A stretch of DNA of 64,000 nt from the NCBI GenBank assembly GCA_003611875.1, contig RAYY01000020.1:1-64000 (forward strand), read 5' to 3'. Origin of the DNA: a bacterium D16-56. GTDB taxonomy: Bacteria; Bacillota; Clostridia; Lachnospirales; Lachnospiraceae. Of the stretch, positions 8,693-45,759 are shown one piece after another (position 1 is the stretch's first letter; every line of letters begins with the position of its first letter). Under the pieces are notes generated by a model. It saw nothing but the letters and a program-made list of their open reading frames with translations, was not told the origin of the DNA and made no database searches. The position numbers and the translations under genes are program-made.

Positions 8693-8739
8693 CTGCTGTT
8701 TTTCATCCTATACTATTTTCTTAATGGAAAGACCGCCGC

Positions 8740-9198
8740 TTATCCCCGGCTCCACCCAAACTTCAGAAAAATTCCCAGTATCACCAAAGCGCTTCCTCCG
8801 GCCAAAACCGCCACATGCTTCATGGCAATGCTGTTTGCCTGATCATAGCTTTTCTGATCCTCTGCCACCATAAACTCATTGGGATTATCTAAATTATACC
8901 GAATTTCACAGACCTGGCCAATATCAAACCCTGTGATCTGATCCGTAAAGAGCCGGCTCCTTTTTTCATACTCCACGCCCTTTATCTCATAGTGAAATAC
9001 AGGCCAGTAATAAATCCTTCCTCCCAGAAACACTTCCTCCTCGACCCGTATCACCCGGGCCTTTGTTGTTCCGGTATAGAATTTGCGTGCTTTTTTAATC
9101 TCTGCCTTTAATTCCTCACAGCTTTCCAAAACCGTCTGAAAGCTGACTACTGCCGTCACAATTCCCATTACAAGATTTACCAGCCAATTACCTATCAT
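8740..9198 (-). CDS. DUF3592-like membrane protein
   Basis: The start MIGNWLVNLV at 9198 is chosen because GAGGGG lies just upstream; a longer frame has no such site. The 152-residue protein has a hydrophobic helix at each end (about 4-20 and 128-146) and a beta-rich middle with YYWPVFHYEIKGVEYE and CEIRYNLDNPNEF. This matches the DUF3592 pattern, in which a small beta domain is exposed on one side of the membrane. Function unknown. It lies between the minus-strand CNNM transporter gene and the terminator of the TIGR04086 gene. Confidence 0.75.
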   Translation of the reverse strand: MIGNWLVNLVMGIVTAVVSFQTVLESCEELKAEIKKARKFYTGTTKARVIRVEEEVFLGGRIYYWPVFHYEIKGVEYEKRSRLFTDQITGFDIGQVCEIRYNLDNPNEFMVAEDQKSYDQANSIAMKHVAVLAGGSALVILGIFLKFGWSRG

Positions 9199-9251
9199 AG
9201 TAACCCCTCTTTCATATATGATGGAACTGAGAAAACGCGGCATGGAAGACT

Positions 9252-10598
9252 TCAGGATGCCTGGCTCTCTGCTCCAGCCGGCTCATCTTTCCCCTGCTGC
9301 TCTTTTTTGTCCTTACCATCCACCTCTTTCATTTCATCTTCTTCACTTAGAATATACAGGTGAATCTTCTCAATCCGATTTTTCTCTACACTTTCCACCA
9401 CGAGGCGGAGCCCTTCATGGCACACTTCCTCCCCGGCTTCAGGCAAATGGTCTAAAAGGCCGATCACCAACCCGCCTATAGAGTCATATGCCTCTGATTC
9501 CAGCTTCAGATTCAGCCATCCATTTAAGTCATCCAGCTTCATGGAACCGCTGACCAGATATTCGTCCGCCGCAATCATCTTGAGTGCATCTTCCTCATCC
9601 TCATCGTACTCATCCCGGATTTCTCCCACAATCTCCTCCAGCATATCCTCCAAAGTGACCATGCCGGCTGTAGCGCCGTACTCATCCAGCACAATGATAA
9701 AATTATTAAAGGTCTTACGCATTTCCACCATCAGCTCCGCTGTCTTTTTGTACTCATAGGTATACAGAGGCTGCCTTAAAAAGTCTCGAATGGTAAATGC
9801 CTTCCGCTCGGCCAGCAGAAAATCCTTTACATTAATAATACCGATTACATTATCCGTAGTTCCCTCATACACCGGAAACCTGGTAAACTTTTCCCGGCGG
9901 AAAATCTCCATCAATTCCTCAAATGTTGTGTCCACATCCACCATAACCATGTCAATCCGGGGCACCATCACATCCTTTGCCACCGAATCTCCAAAGTCAA
10001 ACACATTATTGATCATCTTCTTTTCTTCTGTCTCAATCACGCCCTCCTCGTGGCTTACCTCCACAATTGTCCGCAGCTCATCCTCTGTAATGGCTTCCTG
10101 CTTCTTATTCGGGTCCACCCGCAAAAGCAGTAAAAATCCAAGGGAAAGCTGATTGATACAAAAGATTACCGGCGTCAGCAATGTCATCATCAGGTAAATA
10201 ATTCCTGCATACTGCAGAGCCAGCCGCTCAGAGTGAATCGTGGCAAGGGTTTTGGGAGAAATCTCACCAAAAACCAAAATCAACAGTGTCAGGATACCGG
10301 TTGCCGCTCCCACTGCTTTACTTCCAAATAGCTGCAGGGTCAAGGTCGTCATAAGAGAAGACGCTGACAGGTTCACAATATTATTTCCCACCAAAATGGT
10401 GCTCAGCATCTTTCCTGGATTCTCAATCACCTTTGTCAAGGTGATCGCCTTCTTATCTCCTGACTCCGCCAGAGTCCTCACCCGCATGCGGTTAACCGTA
10501 GTAAGAGCCGTCTCTGCAGAAGAAAAAAACGCAGAGAGGCAAAGCAGCACAACAACCGTACAGATCTGTATGCCTGTACTGTCTCCCGAATCTAACAT
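9252..10598 (-). CDS. CNNM/HlyC-CorC family transporter with CBS domains
   Basis: The 448-residue protein has the CNNM (DUF21) transmembrane domain at about 10-190, with FFSSAETAL and the VGNNIVN motif. A pair of CBS domains follows at about 205-325 (VPRIDMVMVD, FTRFPVYEGTTDNVIGIINVKD), and then the HlyC/CorC C-terminal FAD-PCMH-like domain. Homologues are implicated in magnesium and cobalt efflux and in membrane ion homeostasis. The tail is rich in Glu, Lys and Gln. It lies downstream of the lspA-like gene on the minus strand. The old annotation as haemolysin is not supported by anything here. Confidence 0.93.
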   Translation of the reverse strand: MLDSGDSTGIQICTVVVLLCLSAFFSSAETALTTVNRMRVRTLAESGDKKAITLTKVIENPGKMLSTILVGNNIVNLSASSLMTTLTLQLFGSKAVGAATGILTLLILVFGEISPKTLATIHSERLALQYAGIIYLMMTLLTPVIFCINQLSLGFLLLLRVDPNKKQEAITEDELRTIVEVSHEEGVIETEEKKMINNVFDFGDSVAKDVMVPRIDMVMVDVDTTFEELMEIFRREKFTRFPVYEGTTDNVIGIINVKDFLLAERKAFTIRDFLRQPLYTYEYKKTAELMVEMRKTFNNFIIVLDEYGATAGMVTLEDMLEEIVGEIRDEYDEDEEDALKMIAADEYLVSGSMKLDDLNGWLNLKLESEAYDSIGGLVIGLLDHLPEAGEEVCHEGLRLVVESVEKNRIEKIHLYILSEEDEMKEVDGKDKKEQQGKDEPAGAESQAS

Positions 10599-10764
10599 AA
10601 AATACTATTAATCTCCTTTCCAATCTATACAATACTGTACCAGTGTCGTGCCAACGCAGCAATCCCGGTATCCCATGAACGCTTACGTGCCGACAACATT
10701 AAATTGCCTACGATTCTACAATATTTCCTGTTCCTTGTCAATCTCTATTTCTTCCGCGGTACTG

Positions 10765-11241
10765 TCACTCCTTTTTTCCAATCTCTTTTATTGCTGCCGG
10801 AAATCTGACTGCCTGAAGACCAGAACCCAAGAAAATAAAAATATCTCCCAGATTAAACACAACCTTTTTCAGAGGACCAAACCGAAGGCTGAAATAATCC
10901 ACCACATAGCCGCGCACATACCGGTCATACAGATTACTCAGAGAACCGCCGATCACCAGAGCCAATGACAGCTTATCCATATATTTTCCTTTTGTCTTCT
11001 CCTTCTCAATCAAACATCCTCCTAAAATCGAGGTCAATACCAAGGGAATCAGACGCACCAGCTCCTCATGTCTTTTCATAAAGCCAAAAGGAAAACCTGG
11101 ATTATGATTCTGGTAAATCCATATACGGTCTCTGCTGCCTTCCAAGGGCTTAGGAAACGATTCTGGATCCTGCGCTTCGATCCTGTGCTTCAGCCACTGG
11201 TCTCCGCCTGCCAGCAGCATAATCAATGCCATATATGCCAT
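10765..11241 (-). CDS. lspA: Signal peptidase II (prolipoprotein signal peptidase) homologue
   Basis: The product is 158 residues with four hydrophobic segments, as expected for LspA, which cleaves the signal peptide of prolipoproteins in the membrane. Both catalytic aspartates are visible, in SNLYDRYVRGYVVDY and FNLGDIFIF. Two motifs deviate: the usual NxGxAFG reads NPGFPFGF, and the GGxxGN segment reads GGSLSN. Start MAYMALIML at 11241 has AAGGAGGG upstream and is preferred over a longer frame. Likely active, but a divergent paralogue cannot be excluded. Confidence 0.85.
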   Translation of the reverse strand: MAYMALIMLLAGGDQWLKHRIEAQDPESFPKPLEGSRDRIWIYQNHNPGFPFGFMKRHEELVRLIPLVLTSILGGCLIEKEKTKGKYMDKLSLALVIGGSLSNLYDRYVRGYVVDYFSLRFGPLKKVVFNLGDIFIFLGSGLQAVRFPAAIKEIGKKE

Positions 11242-32485: not shown

Positions 32486-34588
32486 TCAGCTTCTGTCTGA
32501 CATCTGCATCTCACTCCTGAAATCTCCGGCTCCCACAGAAAACAACACTGCCGAACATCCCGGCAGCTCCAGGGCAAGCTTCCCGTCCTTCACTTCATAA
32601 TCCTCAATCCCGGCATTATACCCGTCTCCATAGCTTAACATAAGCCGACGCATCACCTGCCCGTCACAGACTCCCAGCTCCCACACCGGAAGTTCCACCT
32701 GTAATGCGCCTTCCCTGTTATTGACTGCCACTACACACCGGTTTGTCCGGTACATCCGGCCATAGGCAATCAGCTGTTGGCCTGCCAAAAGCTGTTTTAG
32801 AGATCCGTATCGCAAAGCAGGAAGATTCTTGTGAAGGGTAATCATATAGCGGTGAAATTCGATCAGCTCATAATCTTCATTTCCCCAAGGATAGGTCCGC
32901 CTGTTGTCCGGATCTGTCCAGCCGCACAATCCTGCCTCATCGCCATAATACAAGGTCGGAGCTCCGGGCCATGTCATCTGAATCATCACAGCCTCCCGTA
33001 GCACACTCTTTTTCACCCCTTCATTTGCCCTCTCCGCTCCCACAGTGCCGATTCTTCCCACCATTTGATTGGTACGGGTAAGAAACCGGCTGTGGTCATG
33101 ATTCGAAAGCTGGTTCATGGCTACCATTAAAGACGGGGTCTGCATCCGGCTCATATGATAAAACATGGCTCTGAAAAAATTCTCCCCATCGCCATACAAA
33201 TCCCCGTTATACTCGTCGCTGTGCTTTTCCATGCCTGTTAAAAACCAGGTAAGCGGCTCCATAAATGCATCATAATTCATAACAGAATCCCACTGATCCC
33301 CCTGAAGCCAGCTTTTCGGATCTCCGTAATGCTCTGCCAATATCACAGCCTCTGAATTGGCCTTTTTCACATTCTCCCGAAAATCATGCCAGAACTTGTG
33401 GTTAAATTCACTGCTGTGTCCCAAATCCGCCGCCACATCCAGACGCCATCCATCCACATTATATGGCGGAGACACCCATTTGCGGGCAATGGCCATAATA
33501 TACTCATAAAGCTTGGGAGACTCCTCGTAGTTCAGCTTAGGCAGCGTATCATGTCCCCACCATCCGTCGTAATTATGATTATAAGGCCATGCATCTTCCT
33601 TATAAAACTTAAAAAAGGTACGGTACGGACTGTCCTCCGACTCATAAGCCCCTGGCTCATACATCCCCTGGCGGGAATAAATCAGCTCCCTGTCCAGCCA
33701 TTTATTAAAAGAGCCGCAGTGATTAAAGACCCCGTCTATGATCACCTTCATGCCGCGCCTGTGAACCTCCTCCATAAATCTGGCAAAAAAGGCATCGCTT
33801 GCTTCCAGATTCTCTAAATCTGCAGTACGGATTTGGTAGCGGGTAGCGCTCTCATTGCCGGCAGCATTCTCTGCCACCAGGTCCCCTCCGTCTTTCACAA
33901 TCACCCCGAAATGAGGATCAATGTGATCATAATCCTGGGTATCATACTTATGATTGGAAGGCGATACAAATAACGGATTAAAATAGATCACCTCTACTCC
34001 CAAATCCTGAAGATAATCCAGTTTGTCCCAGACTCCCTGCAGGTCTCCTCCATAAAAGCAGCGCACATCCATAGAAGACGGATTCTGTCCCCAATTCTCG
34101 ATTCGCTGAACCGGTTCCCCAATGTAAACATATTCCCGGGACTGCACGTCATTATCATAATTCCCTCTGCAAAAGCGGTCCACAAAAATCTGGTACATGA
34201 CCGCTCCCTTGGCCCACTTAGGCGTATGGAATCCAGGGGTAATACAAAACGCGTACTGGTCGTCATGCTCCTCCGACGGCCCCATGCGGTTATAGCAACA
34301 GATTTCCTGGTTCTTTATTACCTTAAAATAATAACGTCTTGGCTTTTTCCCGGCCACAATCACATACTCAAAATAATCAAACATCTTGTCCGAAGACGTT
34401 TTCCCCATCCTGGCAACGAGCTTTCTTTCTTCTTCTATATAAAAAACGGCATCCGCATTGTCTTTTGCTGTCCTGAACCGAATCAGCACCCGATCTCCCT
34501 CGTCCGGCTCCTCCGGCCTTCGGTAATCAGAAGTCTCATCTGCAAACAATGCTCTCCAGTTCAATTCTCTGTTCTGTTCATCCCTCAT
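32486..34588 (-). CDS. Alpha-amylase family (GH13) enzyme, neopullulanase/cyclomaltodextrinase-like
   Basis: The 700-residue protein has an N-terminal CBM34-like beta domain (about 1-120) and a complete GH13 barrel. All key residues are present: DGVFNH (region I), nucleophile Asp384 in GWRLDVAAD, acid/base Glu419 in VILAEHYGD and Asp498 in LSNHDHSRF. A C-terminal beta domain completes it. There is no signal peptide, so it acts in the cytoplasm on imported maltodextrins or on glycogen. It stands alone on the minus strand. Precise specificity cannot be read. Confidence 0.92.
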   Translation of the reverse strand: MRDEQNRELNWRALFADETSDYRRPEEPDEGDRVLIRFRTAKDNADAVFYIEEERKLVARMGKTSSDKMFDYFEYVIVAGKKPRRYYFKVIKNQEICCYNRMGPSEEHDDQYAFCITPGFHTPKWAKGAVMYQIFVDRFCRGNYDNDVQSREYVYIGEPVQRIENWGQNPSSMDVRCFYGGDLQGVWDKLDYLQDLGVEVIYFNPLFVSPSNHKYDTQDYDHIDPHFGVIVKDGGDLVAENAAGNESATRYQIRTADLENLEASDAFFARFMEEVHRRGMKVIIDGVFNHCGSFNKWLDRELIYSRQGMYEPGAYESEDSPYRTFFKFYKEDAWPYNHNYDGWWGHDTLPKLNYEESPKLYEYIMAIARKWVSPPYNVDGWRLDVAADLGHSSEFNHKFWHDFRENVKKANSEAVILAEHYGDPKSWLQGDQWDSVMNYDAFMEPLTWFLTGMEKHSDEYNGDLYGDGENFFRAMFYHMSRMQTPSLMVAMNQLSNHDHSRFLTRTNQMVGRIGTVGAERANEGVKKSVLREAVMIQMTWPGAPTLYYGDEAGLCGWTDPDNRRTYPWGNEDYELIEFHRYMITLHKNLPALRYGSLKQLLAGQQLIAYGRMYRTNRCVVAVNNREGALQVELPVWELGVCDGQVMRRLMLSYGDGYNAGIEDYEVKDGKLALELPGCSAVLFSVGAGDFRSEMQMSDRS

Positions 34589-42415: not shown

Positions 42416-42444
42416 TTTATATCCGTTTTGCTACAGTTTGTCAA
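42416..42444 (-). promoter_or_regulatory. Sigma-A promoter of hup
   Basis: A perfect TTGACA (42439-42444, minus strand), 17 bases, then TATAAA (42416-42421). The -35 hexamer overlaps the mazG stop codon TGA (42443-42441). Confidence 0.88.
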
Positions 42445-42821
42445 GGTTTTTCGTTTTTTTCCTGCTTTTTAATGTCATTCCACAAATCCAGACTTTCCTC
42501 TGCTGATAACGACTTCGGATCCCCAAACACATGAGGATGGCGGCGTATCATTTTTTCACATACGCCATCCACCACATCCTTCAGATCAAAATACCCGTTC
42601 TCCTTGGCGATCTGGCTGTAAATCAGCACATTAAAAAGCACATCTCCCAGTTCCTCGCATAGATTGTTCATATCCTGCTTGTCAACCGCTTCCGCTACCT
42701 CCCTGGCCTCATCCAGCAGGCAGGGCTTTAAGCTTTCAAAGGTCTGCTTTCTGTCCCAGGAGCAGCCCTGCTCGGAACGCAGGGTCTCCACCACAGACAT
42801 CAGCTCCTCAAATGTATGCAT
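42441..42821 (-). CDS. mazG: MazG-family nucleoside triphosphate pyrophosphohydrolase, single domain
   Basis: The ATG at 42821 (MHTFEELMS) lies eight bases after GGAGGGG and directly behind the stop of the GlgX-like gene. The 126-residue product is one MazG domain with the magnesium-binding EAREVAEAVD and EELGDVLFNV motifs. The Bacillus homologue YabN has an additional N-terminal methylase-like domain and a second MazG half, which are absent here. It probably hydrolyses non-canonical NTPs. Confidence 0.92.
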   Translation of the reverse strand: MHTFEELMSVVETLRSEQGCSWDRKQTFESLKPCLLDEAREVAEAVDKQDMNNLCEELGDVLFNVLIYSQIAKENGYFDLKDVVDGVCEKMIRRHPHVFGDPKSLSAEESLDLWNDIKKQEKNEKP

Positions 42822-42823
42822 AG

Positions 42824-44698
42824 TCACCCCTCCTTTGGTGATTTCTTTTTCCCGATCATCACCAGGATCGTCCTGGCCTTTGCCATAAGCTGCTTCTGGT
42901 TCTCTGCCTCCGGTTCCGATCCCGGTTCAAAATATCCGTTATGCTCCCGGTCTCCCGTGTTAAAAGCCACATGCCATGTCATTCCCTTCGGAAGATGAGG
43001 CAGGGCAAACTCATGAGGTTCCCAATGCATGTTGTATGCCACAAAGAAATAATCATCCTCTGTACCGTCCGGTCTTTTCCCATAGCTTCCGCAGTACAGA
43101 ATGCCTAACTGCCTTCTGAACGGGTCAAATTCAGGAGCCCAGGCTTTCACGCCATGATATGACACATCCGGAAACCCACATGCCTCATAATCCATCAGCC
43201 GCGGCTCCCTCTTTCCATGAAACACCGGATGAGCCTTCCGAAAAGCAATCACTGCCTTCACAAACTGCAGCAAATCCCCATTGGTTCTTGTCTGGTTCCA
43301 GTTCAGCCAGGAAATCTCATTGTCCTGGCAGTAAGCATTATTATTGCCCTTCTGGGAATTGCCAAACTCATCCCCTGCCATAAAAAGAGGAGTGCCCTGG
43401 CTTAGAAACAGCAGAAGAAAGCTGTTGTAAAGCTGCTGTCTGCGAAGCTCTACCACCTTTTTTTTGCGCACAGGCCCTTCCACTCCGCAGTTCCAGCTAT
43501 AATTCTGACTAATGCCATCCTGATTCCTTTCGCCGTTTTCTTCATTATGCTTCTGCTCATAGCTGACCAGATCCATCAAGGTATACCCATTGGTATTTGC
43601 CATATAATTGATGATTCCGCAGCCTGCCGGGTTGCATCTGCTTCTGTAGGCAAGGGCATTCATCTGCCCCTCATCCCCTTTCAGAACCCGGCGCATATCT
43701 GTCAGAAAGCCGTCGTTATACTCTCCCAGATGGCGGTCTCCCTTCACCGGCGTATCCCGCTCATCCCAATAAGAGGCCCACAGCTTTGTCCCTGCCAAAT
43801 AAGGATCCCTGGCTAAAAGCTCCGTGGGCGCTGCACCCACCAGGTGAACGCCGTCCAAGTGATATTCCCTGACCCAGCGCCTTACCATATCCAGCACAAA
43901 TACCGATGATTCCTGCCCGGTAAAGAATAATTCTGCAACCAGTTCGATTCCTGCCTGATGAAGCTCTTTCACCAGATTCTTAAGCTCTAAAACCGGACTG
44001 CGCCGCTTTCCCGCATACGCAACCTTGGGCGCACCGTGAAAGGCCCGCCCATATCCCCAATAATTTATTTTTCCTGTCAATACCTCCCTGCCGGCAGGAT
44101 CTCCTTCGTTCCTTGCAGTCATAACCTCGGAAAACTCTGCTATGGGCATTAACTCCAAAGTAGTGATCCCCAATTCCTTCATATAGGGAATCTTCTCAAT
44201 AATCCCCCGAAAGGTTCCCTTATCCTTTACCTTTGAAGAAGAATGTCTTGTAAATCCCCGCACATGGGCGCGGTACACAATACAATCTTCATAAGGAATC
44301 CGCAAAGGCTTATCCCCTTCCCAGTCAAATTCCTCCTGACAGACCGGACTCCGCAGAAGTCTATGTACCTGTTCTGCATCTCCCCACTCTCCGCAGCCTG
44401 TAAAAGCATATCCATAAGGATCAGGAAAGTACTGTCCGTCTGCCTCAAAAGCATACTGAAGACGATACAAATCTTTTCCCGTCACAGTCATCTCCCAAAC
44501 ATTACCGGTTCTTCCTTCTTCTGGAAACATAATGCGAACCGGTTCCGGATCCATCTGATGCGGCGCCGACGGAGCAAACAAAAGCAGGCTACACTGCTTT
44601 GCCTCTGCTGTCACAGAGACATGTATTCCTCCCTCCACATTTGTGAGACCAAATGGATATGCTTTCCTGTCATTGTTGTCAATCCTGTACTGCCGCAT
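42824..44698 (-). CDS. GlgX/isoamylase-like GH13 protein lacking catalytic residues
   Basis: The start MRQYRIDNND at 44698 gives 624 residues. A CBM48-like N-terminal domain (about 5-110) and a GlgX-type barrel are present (VYRAHVRGFT, GYTLMDLVSY, FMAGDEFGNSQKGNNNAYCQD). The catalytic positions are changed: Val287 stands where the nucleophile Asp of GFRFD should be (GVHLV), Ser309 where the acid/base Glu should be (LWASYWDE), and Asn370 where the third Asp should be (ANTNGYT). Region I is also lost (LVAELFFTG). The frame is intact, so this is probably a non-catalytic, perhaps glycogen-binding, protein. Confidence 0.85.
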   Translation of the reverse strand: MRQYRIDNNDRKAYPFGLTNVEGGIHVSVTAEAKQCSLLLFAPSAPHQMDPEPVRIMFPEEGRTGNVWEMTVTGKDLYRLQYAFEADGQYFPDPYGYAFTGCGEWGDAEQVHRLLRSPVCQEEFDWEGDKPLRIPYEDCIVYRAHVRGFTRHSSSKVKDKGTFRGIIEKIPYMKELGITTLELMPIAEFSEVMTARNEGDPAGREVLTGKINYWGYGRAFHGAPKVAYAGKRRSPVLELKNLVKELHQAGIELVAELFFTGQESSVFVLDMVRRWVREYHLDGVHLVGAAPTELLARDPYLAGTKLWASYWDERDTPVKGDRHLGEYNDGFLTDMRRVLKGDEGQMNALAYRSRCNPAGCGIINYMANTNGYTLMDLVSYEQKHNEENGERNQDGISQNYSWNCGVEGPVRKKKVVELRRQQLYNSFLLLFLSQGTPLFMAGDEFGNSQKGNNNAYCQDNEISWLNWNQTRTNGDLLQFVKAVIAFRKAHPVFHGKREPRLMDYEACGFPDVSYHGVKAWAPEFDPFRRQLGILYCGSYGKRPDGTEDDYFFVAYNMHWEPHEFALPHLPKGMTWHVAFNTGDREHNGYFEPGSEPEAENQKQLMAKARTILVMIGKKKSPKEG

Positions 44699-44811: not shown

Positions 44812-45759
44812 TCAACCCTGATCCTTTAACTGCCTCATCCCTTTATACAGATTTTCCTTATATACCCCCTGCTCCACAAGACCGCGGATTGCCGCCTCCA
44901 CTGCAGCTTTATCCTCCTGATAGGTCACGCCAAACCATCTGTCACGGGTTTCCAGCACCTTCACTCGGGCTTTCCCTGCCTGAATCAAATCATCGATTAC
45001 CCCAGGCAGAAGATATTCCGCCTTGAGATTTCCTGCATGGCTGTCTAAAAAAACCGGAAACCTCCGCTCCAGCTCCTCCAAAAAGGCCGGAGGCGCTCCC
45101 CACATATTCATTGATACATGCTGATCTGCATGGACTGACACAGGATTTCCCTTTTCATCCTTTGCCGCAATTCCATGTTCCTTTTGCTCAATGTCATAGG
45201 TCTCTGTCACCTGTTTTAGGCTCCCGTCTTCCCCCAGCCTGCAGATTCCTCTTGTAACGGACCCGTTCTCACTTAATGTATTTGACAGGATAAAGCCGGC
45301 CATACACATATCGTATACATCTGACTCTGTGTCCATGGTCTCTGTCATATAGGCGTGAATGCTGCGGAAAGCCTCCTTTCCATAATAATCGTCTGCATTG
45401 ATGACCACAAACGGCTCCTTCACAATCCCTCTGACCGACAACACCGCCTGACCGGTTCCCCAAGGCTTTTTCCTGCCCTCCGGCACCTGATAACCCTCGG
45501 GGAGATCCGCAAGCTCCTGATAAGCATAGACAACCGGAGCCACCTGCTCGATCCTCTCCCCGATAATCCGTTTAAAATCCTGCTCCAGATCCTTTCGAAT
45601 AATAAATACCACTTTATTAAATCCTGCTTCCAGTGCATCATGAATCGAATAATCCATAATGATCTCACCGTTTGGCCCTACTGGCTCCAACTGCTTGATC
45701 CCGCCGCCAAACCGGCTCCCCAATCCTGCCGCCATAATTACCAAGGTTGTGTTTCTCAT
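44812..45759 (-). CDS. Sugar nucleotidyltransferase
   Basis: The 315-residue protein has the nucleotidyltransferase signature MAAGLGSRFGGGIKQLEPVG, in which Gly-rich loop and Lys bind the NTP, and a metal-binding INADDYYG. The central part (GTGQAVLSV) is also typical. Related enzymes activate sugar-1-phosphates, but sequence does not allow the nucleotide or sugar to be named; it is not a close match to GalU. It lies between lepB and the GlgX-like gene on the same strand. Confidence 0.82.
   Translation of the reverse strand: MRNTTLVIMAAGLGSRFGGGIKQLEPVGPNGEIIMDYSIHDALEAGFNKVVFIIRKDLEQDFKRIIGERIEQVAPVVYAYQELADLPEGYQVPEGRKKPWGTGQAVLSVRGIVKEPFVVINADDYYGKEAFRSIHAYMTETMDTESDVYDMCMAGFILSNTLSENGSVTRGICRLGEDGSLKQVTETYDIEQKEHGIAAKDEKGNPVSVHADQHVSMNMWGAPPAFLEELERRFPVFLDSHAGNLKAEYLLPGVIDDLIQAGKARVKVLETRDRWFGVTYQEDKAAVEAAIRGLVEQGVYKENLYKGMRQLKDQG

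Follow-up and report, generated by a model that had tools for sequence, protein, structure and literature searches.

A GlgX-type GH13 protein without a catalytic triad is maintained across the Lachnospiraceae

The window analysed here, by which we mean the whole stretch of 64,000 nucleotides, encodes a GlgX/isoamylase-type GH13 protein that we regard with high confidence as a maintained, catalytically dead pseudoenzyme. The protein is lineage-wide and single-copy, and it is commoner in the Lachnospiraceae than the active enzyme from which it derives. Its catalytic residues and active-site loops had disappeared by the time of the common ancestor of a Lachnospiraceae clade, and since that ancestor purifying selection has kept the protein, which occurs in single copy and is predicted to fold. 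A maintained pseudoenzyme is what the original prediction, made from the sequence of the window, had proposed; clade-wide loss of the catalytic residues, purifying selection, presence in 122 of 150 genomes and a confident fold now support that proposal strongly. The best explanation overall, a maintained pseudoenzyme that works without catalysis by binding glucan, has in our view an even chance.

Results

The catalytic regions of the window protein are degenerate

The features discussed below are collected in Table 1. The reading frame runs on the minus strand through 624 codons without interruption, and its TGA is followed by CT and then by the ATG of mazG (TGA-CT-ATG); both the open frame and the two-base distance had been predicted. 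An alternative mazG start, a GTG, overlaps the pseudoenzyme stop. Against the NCBIfam GlgX model (TIGR02100) the window protein scores 313.8 bits and does not reach the cut-off of 640.9, below which some active Lachnospiraceae GlgX proteins also fall slightly (610-635 bits). Pfam yields a short alpha-amylase match alone (30.7 bits), CBM_48 remaining below threshold in the window protein, and the best relatives in a PDB sequence search are plant isoamylase 1 and GlgX-TreX.

Table 1. Features of the window discussed in the text (coordinates in the window; residues of the pseudoenzyme).
Feature	Coordinates	Strand	Remarks
GlgX/isoamylase-type GH13 pseudoenzyme	42824..44698	(-)	624 aa; ATG 44698, TGA 42824-42826
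mazG, single MazG domain	42441..42821	(-)	two bases downstream of the pseudoenzyme stop
Sugar-nucleotidyltransferase-like gene	44812..45759	(-)	directly upstream of the pseudoenzyme; a relative lies upstream in most genus loci
Degenerate GH13 region I	43916..43933	(-)	residues 256-261, ELFFTG versus DVVFNH in active enzymes
Degenerate GH13 region II	43838..43855	(-)	residues 282-287, DGVHLV versus DGFRFD in active enzymes; nucleophile Asp is Val287
Degenerate GH13 region III	43772..43774	(-)	acid/base Glu is Ser309
Degenerate GH13 region IV	43589..43594	(-)	His-Asp is Thr369-Asn370
Post-beta7 segment	43463..43570	(-)	residues 377-412; KHNEENGERNQDG and SWNCGVEG; retained
Beta8 segment	43289..43399	(-)	residues 434-470; contains GDEFGNSQKGNNNAYCQDN; largely retained
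Barrel/C-domain junction	43064..43222	(-)	residues 493-545; more conserved than in active GlgX
MalZ/neopullulanase-like GH13	32486..34588	(-)	about 8 kb from the pseudoenzyme; catalytic motifs intact, including AEHYGD and NHD

The window protein was aligned with 107 relatives, including two GlgX paralogues encoded by the same genome. Both paralogues keep all eight diagnostic letters (DVVFNH, GFRFD, AEAWD and CHDGFTL). In the window protein, by comparison with them, region I has changed from Asp to Glu256, from Asn to Thr260 and from His to Gly261; region II from Arg to His285 and from the nucleophile Asp to Val287; region III from Glu to Ser309; and region IV from His to Thr369 and from Asp to Asn370. 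Neither the Asp/Glu/Asp triad nor regions I-IV of GlgX are found in it. The three triad substitutions (Val287, Ser309 and Asn370) are exactly those that had been read from the sequence of the window, and the statement that region I departs from DVVxNH is borne out by residues 256-261.

Loss is not confined to side chains. Regions I and II are separated by 23 residues, compared with 67-69 in active enzymes, and regions II and III by 21 residues, compared with 36-38; about 44 and about 15 residues, respectively, are gone. When the strands are taken from an AlphaFold2 prediction, the deletions fall on either side of beta4, one between it and beta3, the other between it and beta5, and part of the active-site surroundings has therefore been lost as well.

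The prediction itself, obtained with a 38-sequence alignment, is a confident and complete barrel (mean pLDDT 90.6, pTM 0.92, all eight strands), and the model contains the N-domain, the (beta/alpha)8 barrel and the C-terminal beta domain of the GlgX/isoamylase fold. Isoamylases and GlgX are its best PDB matches; by Foldseek, TMq values are 0.83 for rice ISA1, 0.82 for Streptomyces venezuelae GlgX, 0.82 for TreX, 0.77 for Escherichia coli GlgX and 0.76 for plant ISA2. The rest of the fold had been described as intact. That description stands for the eight barrel strands, which are predicted at the confidence just given, but not for the stretches between regions I and II and between II and III, which are shortened.

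Triad loss defines one clade

An alignment of 190 rows was sorted by the eight diagnostic letters: 65 rows have all of them, 124 do not, and one (L010), which is without region IV, was set aside and is excluded from the 124. Four loci with no single ORF of at least 560 aa (L074, L105, L106 and L108) were excluded from the alignments; L177, a partial copy at a contig end, is counted within the 124 and was left out of A2. In a FastTree tree the 124 form one clade with a support of 1.0. None of the triad residues is kept in 90 members, one is kept in 31, two in 3 and three in 0, so that a survey of homologues for the canonical residues found no clade member with the full triad (0/124). Since every one of the 124 has fewer than three triad residues, chance loss is excluded. 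The nucleophile Asp survives in a single member (L115, which has a gap at its region III Glu), the region III Glu in 15 and the region IV Asp in 21, while at the nucleophile position 16 different residues occur across the clade. Short spacing is common to all 124: region II follows region I after 22-23 residues, and 21-22 separate it from region III. Eighty further loci, taken from 80 genomes of the family, all score as the same group (80/80), and 42 columns are invariant over 80 sequences from 80 genomes.

Assignment of the family genomes to the Lachnospiraceae is based on named relatives (Anaerocolumna and Ca. Lachnoclostridium stercoripullorum). The search for named relatives retained the best 80 of at least 597 candidates. 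Some of the named relatives without a triad carry other labels (for example Eubacterium sp. or Clostridia bacterium), and these are mostly metagenome bins.

The clade is found in most Lachnospiraceae genomes

A clade profile was run at E<=1e-140 on 150 Lachnospiraceae genomes (149 genera; completeness 90% or more). The 122 carriers have one match each; a few matches are partial, and some are flagged for an internal stop. Of these carriers, 88 were also checked residue by residue, and 80 of them, the window genome included, made the profile. In a sample of the order (196 genomes), 33 of the 35 Lachnospiraceae genomes match the clade profile; in the other families of the order, 19 genomes give weaker matches, either in pieces or with the C-terminal half alone. 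We considered that these might be hidden clade members and read six of the 19, all of which are canonical (6/6). In a sample of the phylum (299 genomes) only two matches were found at E<=1e-120, both in Lachnospiraceae. The clade was thus not found in the other families covered by the order and phylum samples.

All but one of the 24 genomes of the genus carry the pseudoenzyme, and 5 of the 23 copies (in G015, G017, G018, G019 and G020) are split, stopped or in overlapping pieces. The broken copies lie at loci L105, L106/L074, L107, L108 and L114 and reflect either decay or assembly error; the pseudoenzyme may be dispensable in places.

Constraint has moved from the active site to the barrel/C-domain junction

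In pairwise comparisons by the NG86 method, dN/dS is 0.08 when the window gene is set against its nearest congener (dS 1.22), and the two closest copies in the genus give 0.084. Of 171 pairs, 104 have dS<3, and their median is 0.13; many pairs are near saturation and the values are rough. The direction is clear: at about 0.08-0.13, the gene is under purifying selection.

Which parts of the protein are constrained was examined in 32 genomes that have both copies, by comparing column entropies at aligned positions in 14 segments. This same-genome design was adopted because the 65 active rows of the larger alignment come from much wider taxa. The pseudoenzyme is less conserved overall, with a mean identity of 0.43 against 0.60 for the active enzyme, and its identity is the lower of the two in 487 of 496 genome pairs. 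Relaxation is greatest at beta5 (+1.76 bits), beta4 (+1.21), beta7 (+1.09) and beta3 (+0.88), and the N-terminal domain, over 109 positions, has lost much of its constraint too (+1.11 bits). The post-beta7 segment, on the other hand, is conserved to the same extent as in active GlgX (+0.13 bit, p 0.14), and beta8 shows slight relaxation (+0.39 bit, p 0.0007).

In only one of the 14 segments, the junction between barrel and C-domain (residues 493-545), is conservation significantly higher in the pseudoenzyme (-0.59 bit, p 3e-5); in the C-terminal domain the gain is not significant in these 32 genomes (-0.18, p 0.07). Among the 124 clade rows, S513, H515 and W520 never vary, D503 is present in 121 of 124 rows and P510 is nearly invariant; W occupies the position of W520 in 27 of the 65 active rows. 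Relaxation at beta3-beta5 together with the gain at 493-545 indicates that one constrained surface has been swapped for another. Judged by these conservation patterns, such a swap would be the trace expected of a retained non-catalytic binding function, although increased constraint at 493-545 would be just as compatible with an interface to another protein.

Neighbouring genes differ between the genus and the rest of the family

In the genus, the pseudoenzyme gene lies between the nucleotidyltransferase-like gene and either mazG or hup. Coupling to mazG was considered as a functional clue and discarded: mazG is the next gene in 14 of 22 informative genus loci only (a count that includes L108, where it follows the second piece of a split copy), hup without mazG is found in the other 8, and outside the genus a tblastn search (E<=1e-8) found no genes of the division/sporulation block next to clade members. 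The predicted placement inside a conserved division/sporulation block holds in this genus, though with mazG missing next door in those 8 loci, and was not seen beyond it.

For the wider family, neighbours were compared in 100 loci (the 80 loci L117-L196 and 20 others), with eight representatives identified by Pfam and the rest by eye. The representatives are DUF5662, TraX, DUF1292, a sugar-binding protein, an ABC-F ATPase, UvrD, LuxS and an exonuclease. Among loci L117-L196, 40 have DUF5662 downstream on the strand of the pseudoenzyme (28 of them immediately so), 29 have TraX immediately downstream in the same orientation, and 13 have a gene for a sugar-binding protein directly upstream. No glg gene was recognised among the first 40 neighbour clusters listed (at least 4 loci each; 100 loci); the clusters also contain shadow ORFs from the other strand, and the counts just given are those obtained on re-examination. 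A glycogen operon context was rejected for want of any such cluster, though two loci (L167 and L182) hold a nearby active GlgX gene.

These neighbourhoods are where a function unrelated to glycogen, for example that of a structural or signalling protein reusing the fold, finds its argument: mazG, hup and the division/sporulation block adjoin the gene in the genus, and DUF5662, TraX and others do so elsewhere. Against this stand the post-beta7 segment, as conserved as in GlgX, and beta8, which is nearly so. Glycogen synthase is also near-universal in carriers, though equally common in non-carriers; GlgA was found in 149 of the 150 family genomes, and co-occurrence of the pseudoenzyme with glycogen synthesis is therefore uninformative (in the sample of relatives, GlgA was found in 55 of 61 and GlgB in 56 of 61). 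We consider a glycogen-unrelated role unlikely.

Active GlgX is absent from most carriers

Canonical GlgX was counted by hand in 44 of the 150 family genomes (E below 1e-99). In 40 of the 44 the copy was read and is intact at all eight positions; in G083 and G088 it consists of fragments. Both proteins are present in 41 genomes, the pseudoenzyme only in 81, canonical GlgX only in 3 and neither in 25, so that 3 of the 28 genomes without the pseudoenzyme have active GlgX.

The distribution bears on the possibility that the pseudoenzyme is a subunit that pairs with a catalytic GlgX paralogue and tunes it as ISA2 does ISA1 in plants. The plant pair is itself a precedent, and the window genome has two intact GlgX paralogues (C111, at 8704-10926 of locus L086, and C146, at 8358-10508 of L087), although the larger ORFs up to about 8 kb from either include no recognised glycogen gene. 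Nearly all genomes with active GlgX also have the pseudoenzyme (41/44; Fisher p 0.02 over the 150 genomes, uncorrected for phylogeny). In two genomes about 2 kb separates the pseudoenzyme gene from that of active GlgX (G158, contig 6, L182; G163, contig 30, L167), on the same strand in one case and on opposite strands in the other; about 0.09 such cases are expected by a rough estimate (p 0.004). What speaks against an obligate pair is that 81 of 122 carriers are without active GlgX, and that three genomes of the genus (G003, G009 and G011; completeness 94-99%) have the pseudoenzyme alone at E<=1e-20. A GlgX subunit thus seems to us quite unlikely. Because of the 81 carriers, the partner of the pseudoenzyme is probably not obligatorily GlgX.

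The pseudoenzyme does not track the gap in known debranching enzymes

Type I pullulanase was found above cut-off in 37 of the 150 genomes and GDE_C in 27. Pullulanase (TIGR02104) was counted above its cut-off only (E<=1e-150), and more divergent forms may have escaped the count. In 76 genomes neither GlgX nor GDE_C nor an above-cut-off type I pullulanase was found, 58 with the pseudoenzyme and 18 without it.

One reading of these 58 genomes is that the protein is a still-active enzyme with an unorthodox active site which supplies debranching where the known enzymes are missing. A set of invariant acids in the clade (D282, E390, D394, E407, D443, E444 and D459, to which D503, conserved as noted above, can be added) could be cited in its favour. 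Most of these acids, however, are equally invariant in active GlgX and are thus not replacements for the triad; moreover, the nucleophile column is unconstrained and the residues between beta3 and beta5 are gone. The pseudoenzyme does not track the debranching gap either, as 18 of the 28 genomes that lack it are also without all three families.

A simpler candidate for branch removal is at hand. The MalZ/neopullulanase-like GH13 of the window scores 412.7 bits against the maltodextrin glucosidase model, under the cut-off of 568, and a relative 54-73% identical to it was found in all seven GlgX-less carriers whose GH13 proteins were inventoried (G003, G009, G011, G031, G035, G108 and G167). Five of the seven are among the 58 genomes; G003 and G011 are outside the 150-genome sample. 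All seven relatives have the DGVFNH, RLDVA and SNHD motifs, and six have AEHYG. It is possible that the MalZ/neopullulanase-like GH13 removes glycogen branches in Lachnospiraceae, for which it is a reasonable candidate. A still-active enzyme with an unorthodox active site strikes us as very improbable.

That the window gene is decaying, or is an annotation or assembly artefact, is very unlikely to the point of being negligible, given its selection and distribution: the 5 broken copies among the 23 of the genus might suggest it, but dN/dS of 0.08-0.13, family-wide retention, the 42 invariant columns and a high-confidence fold are against it.

Discussion

A non-catalytic glucan-binding protein as the preferred reading

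If the pseudoenzyme is indeed a non-catalytic glucan-binding protein, an alpha-glucan (glycogen or maltodextrin) would be bound by the retained face of the barrel together with the junction at 493-545. Thus bound, the pseudoenzyme might position other glycogen enzymes, modulate them or sense on their behalf, with branching enzyme or the MalZ/neopullulanase-like GH13 as candidate partners. The proposal of an alpha-glucan-binding scaffold or regulator that organises glycogen enzymes, which draws on the conservation patterns and on the precedent of plant ISA2, falls a little short of an even chance in our judgement. A glycogen sensor or scaffold, as first suggested from the sequence of the window, is plausible. 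Several points count against glucan binding: the recurrent neighbours include no recognised glycogen gene, 28 of the 150 genomes manage without the pseudoenzyme (3 of these have active GlgX), CBM_48 stays below threshold, the N-terminal domain is strongly relaxed, and some copies in the genus are broken.

Relationship to known proteins

The active enzymes closest to the pseudoenzyme are the GlgX/TreX-type debranching enzymes (TIGR02100), which we take to be GH13_11 of CAZy. The name GH13_11 is applied to isoamylase-type enzymes (PMC12516185). The pseudoenzyme is homologous to GlgX/TreX over nearly its full length and has the same fold, with TM-scores by query length of 0.77-0.82 to the E. coli, S. 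venezuelae and Sulfolobus enzymes, and it shares their conserved post-beta7 and beta8 segments; it differs in being without all four catalytic regions and in its shorter I-II and II-III spacings.

A probable functional parallel is found in plants. ISA2 is described as a GlgX-type paralogue that has lost its catalytic residues, the nucleophile included, and is kept in the whole lineage (PMC12510319). This non-catalytic protein raises the activity of ISA1, and its C-terminal segment binds glucose residues (PMC12510319, PMC12892837), four of them according to a review, which also places a further glucan site of ISA1 at the interface between the catalytic and C-terminal domains (PMC12892837). Like ISA2, the clade reported here is without GH13 catalytic residues across its lineage. 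Unlike ISA2, the bacterial protein often has no catalytic partner paralogue at all. Nor is ISA2 its closest relative: the profile match to ISA2 is weaker than that to active ISA1 (E 8.9e-72 versus 4.4e-133) and also weaker than that to GlgX, and both profile and fold favour ISA1/GlgX, ISA2 being absent from the tree. As the pseudoenzyme matches ISA1/GlgX above ISA2 in sequence and fold, the resemblance more likely reflects a shared principle than shared descent; the two are probably functionally comparable and of independent origin.

The newly constrained junction may be compared with an enzyme that is regulated through its C-terminal region. S. venezuelae GlgX is allosterically activated by c-di-GMP, the binding of which moves residues 579-593 among others (PMC9530166). 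The moving segment aligns to residues 494-506 of the pseudoenzyme and adjoins the newly constrained stretch 503-520. S. venezuelae GlgX is catalytic, however, and its c-di-GMP ligand Arg579, the one checked of four arginines named, is His494 in the pseudoenzyme.

Beta-amylases are a different enzyme family, and no homology is claimed in comparing the pseudoenzyme with two of their members. BAM4 and BAM9 are plant non-catalytic beta-amylases with roles in starch turnover (PMC12892837), and are thus inactive homologues of glucan hydrolases too. No non-catalytic bacterial GlgX was recognised in the open-licence literature, as far as the titles and the beginnings of abstracts among the matches listed go.

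Implications

A gut species with two glgX homologues is on record (PMC10395257). Surveys of glgX in gut Lachnospiraceae that proceed by similarity may count the dead copy. In 76 of the sampled genomes the three known debranching families counted here all stay below threshold, although GlgA is present in nearly all genomes of the family.

A tentative view, which we hold with less than even confidence, is that an ancestral and widespread non-catalytic homologue of GlgX shapes or senses glycogen without a debranching partner of its own type. It would represent an independent bacterial version of the ISA2 principle, present in more genera than the active enzyme. For plants, work on maize ISA1/ISA2 in The Plant Cell describes the continued selection of a non-catalytic isoamylase as not understood (PMC12510319). 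With a bacterial non-catalytic isoamylase-type protein that often occurs without a catalytic paralogue, the question of why such proteins persist would become testable by gene removal.
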